A DNA stretch of 64,000 bases from Geodermatophilaceae bacterium NBWT11 (lineage in GTDB: Bacteria > Actinomycetota > Actinomycetes > Mycobacteriales > Geodermatophilaceae). Shown here piece by piece: positions 54,879 to 58,014 of this stretch. The position numbers and the translations under genes were made by a program. Every line of letters starts with the position of its first letter. Positions within the stretch are counted from its first letter, which is position 1. The stretch is taken from NCBI GenBank assembly GCA_014218215.1, contig CP043652.1, positions 124,001-188,000 on the forward strand. The letters are read 5' to 3'. The notes under the pieces are model-generated. The model saw only the letters and a list, made by a program, of their open reading frames with translations, was not told the origin of the DNA and searched no databases.

Positions 54879-55018
54879 GCGTGCACCTCTCGGGTGTCTG
54901 GGTGGCGCCGTCCCCGGCGCCCACGGACCGGTGTGTCCGCTGCCCTGTCCAGCACCGCGGTCGCCGTCGCGCTTCCTGCCGGCGCTACGCCGTCGGCGAA
55001 CGACCCGTGACGGGCACC

Positions 55019-55024
55019 TACGCT
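55019..55024 (+). promoter_or_regulatory. Predicted -10 box TACGCT of ctaA
   Basis: TACGCT lies 6 bases before the GTG at 55031, consistent with a leaderless transcript. Confidence 0.5.
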
Positions 55025-55030
55025 GGGCGG

Positions 55031-55942
55031 GTGCCGGTCTCCTCAGCCGTCGTCAGTCGCGTCGCGCTCGCCAACCTCGTCGCCAACGGCCTCATCGTCG
55101 TCACCGGGGGTGCGGTCCGGCTCACCGGATCCGGCCTCGGCTGCCCCACGTGGCCCGAGTGCACCGACGGGTCCATCCGCCCCACCGCCGAGCTCGCCGG
55201 CCACGGGCTCATCGAGTTCGGCAACCGGCTGCTGACCTTCGTCGTCGCCGCGGTCGCCATCGCCACCGTCGTCGTGGTCTGGCGCTCGGCCCGCCGCGAG
55301 CTGCGCAAGTGGGCCGTCGGCAGCTTCCTGGGCATCCCGGCGCAGGCGCTCCTGGGCGGCGTCACCGTGCTGACCGGACTCAACCCGTGGACGGTCGCCG
55401 CGCACTTCCTCGTGTCGATGGTGCTGGTCGCGGTGGCCACGACCCTCTGGCTCCGCTCCCGGGAACCAGGCGTCGGGCAGCTGCTCGTCCGCCGTCCCTT
55501 CGCCCTGCTGGTCGCCGGCATCGCGGTCGCCGTCGCCGCCGTCCAGGTGCTGGGCACCGTGGTCACCGGCTCGGGCCCGCACTCCGGTGACCCTGAGGCC
55601 GGTCGCACAGGCCTGGACCCCGAGCTGATGAGCCAGCTGCACGCCGACGTCGTCTTCCTGCTCATCGGGCTCACCGTCGCGTTGCTGGTCGCCCTCTACG
55701 CCACCGACTCCCCCGGCCGGGTCCGCCGGGCCGCCCGGGACCTCCTCGTCGTCCAGCTCGCCCAGGGCGTCATCGGCTACGTGCAGTACTTCACCGGCCT
55801 GCCCGTCGTCCTGGTCCTGCTGCACATGGCCGGCGCGGTGCTCATCACCGCCTACACCGCCCGCCTGGTCTGGTCCGTCCGCGGCCCGGCCTCCGAGGTC
55901 CCCGTCGACGCCCCCGCCGACGCCTTCGCCTCCGCCCGCTGA
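55031..55942 (+). CDS. ctaA: Heme A synthase
   Basis: A 303-residue membrane protein with eight hydrophobic segments. The signature [22 protein letters not shown] carries the extracellular cysteine pair and heme-region features; HFLVSMVL and LHMAGAVLI hold heme-ligand histidines. It oxidises the methyl group of heme O to give heme A for cytochrome aa3 oxidase. GTG 55031 is chosen because of the -10 box 6 bases before it. CtaB, which makes heme O, lies 1 kb downstream on the other strand. Confidence 0.93.
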
Positions 55943-55967
55943 CCCCCGCCCCCGACGACAAGCGCCT

Positions 55968-56001
55968 CTGGATCCCAGAAACCGCGGTTTTTGGGATCCA
56001 G
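55968..56001. repeat. 34-bp palindrome, copy A, with AAACCGCGGTTT core
   Basis: CTGGATCCCA (55968-55977) pairs with TGGGATCCAG (55992-56001) around the 12-bp palindromic core AAACCGCGGTTT (55979-55990). The whole is one near-perfect palindrome; as RNA it could terminate ctaA. A second 34-bp copy with the same core lies after the next gene (56976-57009). Confidence 0.8.
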
Positions 56002-56061
56002 TGATGGCCGGGCCTGTGGACAACTCCGGTTCCGGGGCCGCGGCTCGACCATCCTCCCCGG

Positions 56062-56937
56062 GTGTCCACCCCACTCCGCCTGACCGAGGGCGTCTTCCTG
56101 GGCAGCGCCGCTGTCGCCGAGGGACTCGTCCGACCGGATGACCTTCGGCGTCGTCACCAGCGTCTCCTGCAGGGGGTGTATGCCACCCGCGGACTGCCGT
56201 TCGACCACGACACGAAGGCCCGCGGTGCGGCGCTCGTCCTGCCTCCCGGCTCCGCGATCGGCGGTCTGTCGGCCCTGGGCTGGTTCGGGGACGCGATGCT
56301 CGGCCCGGTCGACCGGGTCACGGTCATCGTCCCCTCCGGCTTGAAGTGGAGGGGCCCCCGCGAGCTGAGGGTGCACGCCAGTGACCTCGACTCCGACGAC
56401 GTTCTCGTCGACCTGCGTGACGTCCCCGTCACCGATCCCTGGCGCACCGCGTGGGACATCGCCACATTGGAGCCCTTGCCCACCGCCGTCGCCGCCCTGG
56501 ACATGCTCGCCCGCAGGGGGGCGCTCGACCTGGGGCGGTTCGGCACCTGGGTCGCCGACCGGGCCGGGGTCTGGGGCGTTACGCGGGTGCGTCTGGCCTT
56601 GGGGTTCACCGACGCGCGCGCCGAGTCGTTCCCCGAGTCCCGGGTGCGCGTCGCCTGTGTGCGGGACGGGCTGTCACCCGAGGTCCAGTACGTGGTTCGG
56701 GACGACGCGGGCGGGGAGATCGCCCGGGTGGACCTTGCCTTCCCGGGGCTCAAGATCGCCGTTGAGTACGACGGCGTCCACCACTTCCAGGACCAGCAGA
56801 TCCCACTCGACGACGGACGGCTGGCCAGACTGCGCGCCGCCGGGTGGTCGGTGCTCCGGCTGGCCAATGCGGACCTCTACGACATGGCCGGGATCGTCCG
56901 GCGGATCCGCCAGCTGCTCGCCGAGCGTGCCCGCTGA
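56062..56937 (+). CDS. DUF559/Vsr-like PD-(D/E)XK domain protein
   Basis: A 291-residue protein of a large actinobacterial family. The N-terminal ~100 residues resemble the winged-helix AbiEi-type region (RRRHQRLLQGVYATRGL), and the C-terminal domain has ARVDLAFPGLKIAVEYDGVHHF, the DUF559/Vsr-related nuclease pattern with E and D metal ligands, then RLARLRAAGWSVLRLANADL. Function is unknown; nicking or repair activity is guessed from fold. GTG 56062 start. It sits between two matching palindromes. Confidence 0.82.
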   Translation: MSTPLRLTEGVFLGSAAVAEGLVRPDDLRRRHQRLLQGVYATRGLPFDHDTKARGAALVLPPGSAIGGLSALGWFGDAMLGPVDRVTVIVPSGLKWRGPRELRVHASDLDSDDVLVDLRDVPVTDPWRTAWDIATLEPLPTAVAALDMLARRGALDLGRFGTWVADRAGVWGVTRVRLALGFTDARAESFPESRVRVACVRDGLSPEVQYVVRDDAGGEIARVDLAFPGLKIAVEYDGVHHFQDQQIPLDDGRLARLRAAGWSVLRLANADLYDMAGIVRRIRQLLAERAR

Positions 56938-56975
56938 TCCCGGAAAGCGCGGATCCTGGGGGACCGCACGACCCG

Positions 56976-57009
56976 CCCGACCCCAGAAACCGCGGTTTTT
57001 GGAATCGGG
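56976..57009. repeat. 34-bp palindrome, copy B, with AAACCGCGGTTT core
   Basis: CCCGA (56976-56980) pairs with TCGGG (57005-57009), and the 12-bp core AAACCGCGGTTT lies at 56987-56998, in the same position as in copy A. It directly abuts the ctaB stop and can terminate both convergent genes. A third, degenerate form may lie at 56936-56960 (GATCCCGGAAAGCGCGG...). Confidence 0.75.
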
Positions 57010-58014
57010 TCAGAGGAGGACGTCGAGGACCAGGGCGACGGACAGCAGGGTCATGTAGGTGATCGACACCGAGAACAGGCGCATGGGGCGGTCGGGGCCC
57101 TCGCCCTTGATCCGGGTCAGCCAGGCGTGCGACTCGTAGACGTACCAGGCGCCCAGGGCGACGATCGGGACGGCGGAGAGGGCGCCCAGGCCGGGGGTGA
57201 CCGGGACCATCAGCAAGGAGACGGCGAGGGTGCCCCAGGCCCACGCGACCGACTGCCGGCCCACGCTGACCGGTCCGGCGACGACGGAGAGCATCGGGAC
57301 GCCGGCGCGGAAGTAGTCGTGCCGGTAACGGCTGGCCAGCGCCCAGAAGTGCGGCATCTGCCAGCAGAAGACGATCGCGAAGAAGACGACGGCCGGCCAG
57401 TCCAGCGAGCCGGTGACCGCAGCCCAGCCGATGAGCACCGGGGCGGCGCCGGGCAGGCCACCGAAGACGGTGTTGTGCCGGGTGCGGCGCTTGAGGACCA
57501 TCGTGTAGGTGATCGAGTAGGCCAGCATCGCCACGGCGGTGAGGGCGGTGGCCAGCGGCGTGGTGAAGACCCCGAGGACGACGAGGGACACCCAGGCCAG
57601 GATCACGCCGAACAGCAGCGCCGACCGCGGGGCGATGACCCCGCTGGGGATGGGCCGGTTGCGGGTGCGGGACATCAGCCGGTCGATGTCGCGGTCGTAC
57701 CAGCAGTTGATCGTGTTGGCGGCCCCCGCGGCGAGCATGCCGCCGACCAGGGTGGCGATCACCAGGCCGGTGCCGGGCCAGCCGCCGTCGGCCAGCATCA
57801 TCGCCGGGAGCGTGGTGACCAGCAGCAGCTCGACGAGCTTGGGCTTGGTCAGCGAGACGTAGGCACCGACCAGGGCCAGCGGGGACGTGCGGGCCCGGGT
57901 GGTGCGGCGCTCGGCGACGGCGGTCACCGGCAGCTCGGACGGCAGGGCAGCACGGGGTATCCACACCACTTCGTCGAGGGGGCTGACGTTCACCCCATGG
58001 TATCCCTGCGGCAC
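57010..58014 (-). CDS. ctaB: Protoheme IX farnesyltransferase (heme O synthase)
   Basis: A 334-residue UbiA-type prenyltransferase with about nine membrane helices. Mg-prenyl diphosphate motifs are NCWYDRDIDRLMSRTRNRP and the later YRHDYFRAGVPML. It adds a farnesyl group to heme B to form heme O, the substrate of CtaA. Start is GTG 58014; a second GTG at 57993 (NVSPLDEVVW) is possible. Divergent from the transketolase gene. Confidence 0.93.
   Translation of the reverse strand: MPQGYHGVNVSPLDEVVWIPRAALPSELPVTAVAERRTTRARTSPLALVGAYVSLTKPKLVELLLVTTLPAMMLADGGWPGTGLVIATLVGGMLAAGAANTINCWYDRDIDRLMSRTRNRPIPSGVIAPRSALLFGVILAWVSLVVLGVFTTPLATALTAVAMLAYSITYTMVLKRRTRHNTVFGGLPGAAPVLIGWAAVTGSLDWPAVVFFAIVFCWQMPHFWALASRYRHDYFRAGVPMLSVVAGPVSVGRQSVAWAWGTLAVSLLMVPVTPGLGALSAVPIVALGAWYVYESHAWLTRIKGEGPDRPMRLFSVSITYMTLLSVALVLDVLL

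Follow-up and report, generated by a model that had tools for sequence, protein, structure and literature searches.

Gene-specific hairpins bracket DUF559 nuclease genes of Klenkia in a REPtron-like arrangement

DUF559 genes in Klenkia and in other genera of the family Geodermatophilaceae are commonly bracketed by a pair of hairpins that is specific to each gene. The two flanks change together, the hairpin type tracks the type of the protein, solo copies are dispersed in the genomes with a preference for convergent gene ends, and the active-site residues of the predicted nuclease are intact. We consider it probable, at roughly two chances in three, that these features reflect a two-part REPtron-like system, consisting of a DUF559 nuclease gene and a hairpin family that is most likely recognised by the encoded protein, and built on a non-HUH enzyme. 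In a REPtron, a TnpA_REP or RAYT gene, encoding an HUH enzyme, and its REP sequences share this genetic layout (PMC8266576, PMC6006769, PMC3733652).

A bracketed DUF559 gene between ctaA and ctaB

The window, i.e., the whole stretch of 64,000 nucleotides that was analysed (G000:C1:124001-188000, GC 72%), belongs to the 4.59-Mb chromosome of a soil-dwelling member of Klenkia (Geodermatophilaceae). A preliminary description had claimed two 34-bp palindromes with the same core in the same position around one DUF559 gene, and this was confirmed (Table 1), the offset of the core AAACCGCGGTTT being identical in both palindromes. Folded as single-stranded DNA and compared with shuffled sequences, the upstream palindrome performed far better (z -5.7) and the downstream palindrome moderately better (z -2.0). 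The degenerate third copy suspected at 56936-56960 also turned out to be real; 56938-56959 agrees with the consensus at 18 of 22 bases and makes up the left part of a dimer. In Klenkia soli, a dimer arranged in the same way stands alone, with 77% identity across 78 bp. No RNA family was matched when four loci were searched against Rfam. A second, intergenic palindrome family (GACGAGAAGGGCGCTTCTCGTC type) was also noted, with a half copy at 55955-55968, just left of the first palindrome of the window, and further palindromes at L037 ~1435-1500 and at ~2167255 and ~2266630 of the host genome.

Table 1. Features of the DUF559 locus (positions within the window)
Feature	Position	Strand	Remarks
ctaA (COX15-CtaA)	54881..55942	+	left neighbour of the insertion
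Upstream palindrome, single unit	55968..56001	.	34 bp, 17+17, 1 mismatch, CGCG centre
Core AAACCGCGGTTT, upstream copy	55979..55990	.	
DnaA-box-like motif TGTGGACAA (minus strand: TTGTCCACA)	56015..56023	-	past the upstream hairpin, ahead of the start codon; found repeatedly at DUF559 genes
DUF559 gene	56062..56937	+	GTG start, 291 aa; Pfam DUF559 E 5.8e-5, above Pfam cut-off
AbiEi-like region, residues 30-156	56149..56529	+	
EDxHD/Vsr-like nuclease region, residues 192-285	56635..56916	+	Pfam match spans residues 223-285
Downstream element, dimer	56936..57009	.	degenerate left palindrome ~56936-56963 and intact right palindrome 56976-57009
Downstream palindrome	56976..57009	.	34 bp; arms of 20 nt that overlap, complementarity 85%; core AAACCGCGGTTT at 56987-56998
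ctaB (UbiA family)	57010..58014	-	right neighbour, convergent; stop codon abuts downstream palindrome

Comparison of the ctaA-ctaB region among relatives, which had been proposed earlier, revealed that the unit of DUF559 gene and palindromes was absent from six Klenkia relatives, in which ctaA and ctaB are adjacent with a gap of 166 to 398 bp. The DUF559 gene and its palindromes are thus an addition in the host species. Several of the six carry other hairpin families in the gap, and the palindrome of the window was missing from the ctaA-ctaB gaps of other species. The gap of G084 (L288, G084:C4:4103400-4106500) contains several hairpins of a different family along with a MULE-type transposase gene or insertion sequence. 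The ctaA-ctaB gap is thus a spot where hairpins arrive repeatedly.

The core AAACCGCGGTTT has nine exact sites in the host genome, compared to 0 for a reversed control pattern, and a few degenerate copies of the palindrome are found elsewhere in this genome. Solo copies include a dimer of ~64 bp at 1385119-1385182 and one palindrome that directly follows a 5S rRNA gene identified by eye (2266602). With nine core sites genome-wide, the palindrome does not mark most operon ends independently of DUF559 genes. The enrichment next to DUF559 genes that the preliminary description had suggested looking for was not found, since the window palindrome adjoins just 1 of the 11 DUF559 genes in the host genome. 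This seemed to argue against a link between gene and palindrome, but the rule emerged once each gene was compared with its own flanks.

The window family is also rare beyond the host. The 20-mer CCAGAAACCGCGGTTTCTGG had zero exact matches in 84,980 species genomes, a collection from which the host genome was perhaps left out, and with at most one mismatch it was present in just 1 of 114 other genomes of the family. A looser pattern of the palindrome matched 29 stretches, with more than one match only in Klenkia soli. The rarity of CCAGAAACCGCGGTTTCTGG and of the looser pattern outside the host led us to reject the idea of a general actinobacterial terminator motif. Two window-family palindromes of Klenkia soli lie within coding genes, assigned by eye as acyl-CoA ligase-like (L052:1510-1540) and AtuA-like (L054:3825-3850), where they replace ~14 and ~28 nt with the reading frame kept and net gains of 15 and 3 nt. 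These in-gene copies indicate that the palindromes move or get copied, and the sequences suggest that they would arrive by replacement and not by insertion with target duplication.

Gene-specific bracketing, joint change and dispersal of the hairpins

For each gene, the 350 bp upstream were compared with the 350 bp downstream, and an ungapped match with a score of at least 18 (+1/-2) was taken as matched flanks. Across nine Klenkia genomes, matched flanks were observed for 35/59 DUF559 genes, compared to 1/121 neighbouring genes at the same loci (Fisher p 2.7e-20), with a shuffled-pair background of 1.7%; the lone positive neighbouring gene adjoins an extra DUF559 hairpin copy. Other genera of the family showed matched flanks at 15 of 25 DUF559 genes, against a background of 5.5% that is raised because orthologs in these genera share a hairpin, and a class-wide sample showed them at 9 of 29 (background 0.12%). 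The shared segments are 20 to 72 bp long and mostly imperfect inverted repeats, which usually start within ~70 bp past the stop codon and end within ~120 bp of the start codon, some of them overlapping called gene ends. Other DUF559 genes of the host genome have different palindromes, with a type of their own on both sides. Approximately 40% of the Klenkia DUF559 genes and 70% of those in the class sample were without matched flanks, which may be due to start-codon miscalls, decay or other subfamilies.

The hairpins also had predictive value. In G084, a pair of GTTGATCATC hairpins with a spacing of 1.05 kb predicted a DUF559 gene at a place without a reported Pfam match. The interval does code for a DUF559 protein of 310 aa with the signature residues of the family, whose match (E 0.003) falls below the Pfam cut-off and had thus been overlooked. 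Separately, two DUF559 genes of the host genome appear shortened (222 and 186 aa; L070:2478-3561, at 3.513 Mb of G000, and L075), and since the paired hairpins of the shortened L070 gene remain intact, hairpins may outlast their gene.

In Klenkia, the DUF559 genes mostly form sets of syntenic orthologs at conserved loci. The hairpins of orthologs differ between species, yet the two flanks of any one gene agree; 57 of the 64 pairs of orthologs showed more hairpin similarity within a gene than between the orthologs (mean 27 versus 13), the pairs being non-independent. Across genera, protein pairs of more than 300 bits had a hairpin in common in 71% or 66% of cases (hairpin score of at least 13 or at least 15, respectively), compared to at most 0.8% for protein pairs below 180 bits, and when hairpins were shuffled among genes, the observed mean was reached in 0/2000 trials. 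This cross-genus tracking of protein and hairpin is partly shared inheritance at orthologous loci. L073 and L124 lie at different loci, and here proteins of the same clade (66% identity) have the same hairpin. Cross-family likeness of hairpins in the class sample (L230/L073 and L233/L143) was suggestive, the pairs were not best protein matches, and we make no claim from it. Base-pair covariation within a family was weak and non-discriminating and was set aside as proof of selection on the hairpin.

BLAST searches with the DUF559 hairpins of the host genome yielded many solo sites across the genus. The GTGCAGTTGC type was present at 6 places in G000, ~14 in G078 and 3 in G082, and in all three genomes a DUF559 gene carries it. 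The GTTGATCATC type was frequent in G079, G081, G083 and G084, and among the matches listed none came from the other five genomes. Some hairpin types, GGCATGGGAGCC in G079 (Klenkia soli) and CCGAGGCAAGGG in G077/G078, occur in 4 to 11 copies in genomes where no DUF559 gene carrying them was detected; their owner genes may have been lost or missed. The abundance of these two ownerless families speaks against the REPtron-like reading, as do the DUF559 genes without matched flanks, the weak covariation and the small size of the window's own family with its nine exact cores. Taken together with the joint flank change and the occurrence in other genera, the gene-specific pairs and their dispersal support the REP/RAYT-like arrangement suggested earlier, and do so more broadly than had been proposed.

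Solo copies are found shortly after stop codons, mostly at a distance of 0 to 40 bp, and 14/17 are located between convergent genes, compared to 3/19 window gaps of at least 30 bp. Such a position downstream of genes, mainly at convergent ends, is a trait of intrinsic terminators. Combined with the different hairpin families that occupy the ctaA-ctaB gap in different species, it would fit hairpins that act as bidirectional transcription terminators insulating the DUF559 genes, the matching pairs having arisen by ordinary gene conversion. We nevertheless regard this explanation as unlikely. Neighbouring genes at the same loci lack matched pairs, and terminators give no reason for the hairpin type to track the DUF559 protein type across genera; neither do they predict flanks that match each other but differ from those of the ortholog, nor copies within coding genes. 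The same hairpins may still have a terminator role alongside.

The DUF559 protein and its promoter box

A profile built from 52 relatives matched Rv2827c (1zel) with its N-terminal part, while the C-terminal part matched 3hrl and the mobile-intron nuclease 3r3p, which we take to be the EDxHD homing endonuclease I-Bth0305I. Some DUF559 relatives also weakly match Vsr. Among the 52 proteins, E192, D224, E235 and R253 were invariant and H241 and D250 nearly so, a residue pattern as would be expected for an active EDxHD-type nuclease. Genes for Y1_Tnp (RAYT/IS200) were absent from the nine Klenkia genomes, and the same search was positive in E. coli and four other controls. Viral carriers of the family were considered and dropped, as just 4 weak viral relatives were found, and an AlphaFold model of the window protein made without an alignment was discarded (pLDDT 41).

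The motif TGTGGA/TCCACA was located near the start of 41/60 DUF559 genes in Klenkia, compared to 12/148 neighbouring genes (p 2.6e-18). The full TTGTCCACA occurred in 12 of the DUF559 genes with this promoter box, and the box is sometimes doubled, with a spacing of 19 bp. Being conserved where the hairpins are not, the box is more likely than they are to be a regulatory site. The motif (TTGTCCACA / TGTCCACAG) resembles a DnaA box and could serve control by DnaA or be an operator of the AbiEi-like domain.

AbiEi antitoxins bind inverted repeats in promoters (PMC7319586), and the hairpin itself could accordingly be imagined as an operator to which the AbiEi-like N-terminal region binds for autoregulation, all the more as the distance from the upstream hairpin to the start codon is commonly no more than ~120 bp. 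We find this improbable, given that a second hairpin is placed at the stop codon, that many copies reside at unrelated convergent gene ends, that a separate, sequence-conserved TGTCCACAG box is already present in the promoter region, and that the nuclease residues are invariant.

Proposed mechanism and relation to known systems

It is very improbable, and was already disfavoured by the data, that the hairpin belongs to the site, i.e., that DUF559 cassettes inserted into hairpins already in place and turned them into target-site duplications. In its favour, other Klenkia species lack the ctaA-ctaB insertion and several have hairpins in the gap, but the palindrome of the window is not among them. 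DUF559 genes are furthermore mostly at conserved loci, yet their paired hairpins vary between species, and the same-clade genes L073 and L124 have one hairpin at different loci. That DUF559 is a solitary defence nuclease, with the hairpins as decoy or protective sites, is hardly credible despite weak similarity of the protein to PADLOC AbiEi, mREase_II, Hhe and other models, as no defence partner gene was found within the window and dispersed gene-specific repeats at gene ends are no known trait of defence nucleases.

As to the REPtron-like system, the association, dispersal, joint change and type tracking, along with the intact nuclease site, lead us to infer that the protein binds its own hairpin and cuts it, the hairpin being extruded in DNA that is single-stranded or cruciform. 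Copies of the hairpin would then be made by repair or template switching, both into breaks elsewhere and anew at the two flanks of the gene. This cutting-driven copying goes one step further and is preferred over the terminator, operator, target-duplication and defence readings for the counter-evidence given with each of them. The proposed mechanism would account for dispersal, gene specificity, joint flank change and arrivals of the replacement type without target duplication. Of the earlier suggestion that the nuclease might process or spread the palindromes, the association is borne out, whereas spreading would belong to the proposed mechanism, as would any benefit to the host.

As in REPtrons, each palindrome family belongs to one gene, which its members bracket and whose position is mostly stable, with several gene/palindrome pairs per genome; the palindromes are dispersed in intergenic, often convergent, regions and co-evolve with the protein, and orphan palindrome families are present. 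Unlike in REPtrons, the enzyme is a PD-(D/E)XK-type (EDxHD/Vsr-like) nuclease with an AbiEi-like region and not an HUH/Y1 transposase, and the DUF559 hairpins are mostly ~60 bp, with, by inspection, no constant GTAG (or CGTC) tag across types. The nuclease domain is related to that of I-Bth0305I (3r3p), with matching catalytic residues, but the DUF559 gene is intergenic, with no intron or intein and no split recognition site, and has whole flanking hairpins and dispersed copies. Similarly, the N-terminal region is related to the AbiEi antitoxin (type IV toxin-antitoxin, Rv2827c-like), whereas there is no adjacent AbiEii toxin gene, the neighbours being ctaA and ctaB, and the nuclease fusion and the dispersed hairpins set it apart from AbiE systems. 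TIRtrons (TIR-associated tyrosine transposases, PMC3733652) also have a gene flanked by repeats that form dispersed families, but their enzyme is unrelated.

The nuclease-hairpin pairing looks like an unreported counterpart, on an unrelated enzyme, of the transposase-and-palindrome REP systems; a link of DUF559 to gene-flanking palindromes was not found in the titles and abstracts of open-access papers that mention DUF559. CGTC repeats apparently have no dedicated transposase (PMC3733652). DUF559 was matched in the Caulobacter vibrioides control genome, and Caulobacter is among the species with CGTC REPs for which no enzyme is known (PMC3733652). A wider reading, whose chances we see as evenly balanced, is that EDxHD-type DUF559 proteins are widespread, unrecognised palindrome-propagating enzymes in Actinomycetes, each maintaining and spreading its own hairpins by cleavage-driven copying, as a convergent counterpart of RAYT/REP with an unrelated fold. 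If true, that reading could explain REP-like repeats in RAYT-free genomes. DUF559 is a domain of unknown function in many bacteria, and the hairpin partnership gives it a testable substrate; with several independent nuclease/hairpin pairs per genome, specificity swaps are directly assayable. Such a partnership would supply orphan repeats with an enzyme and mean that REP-like repeats have evolved along a second route.
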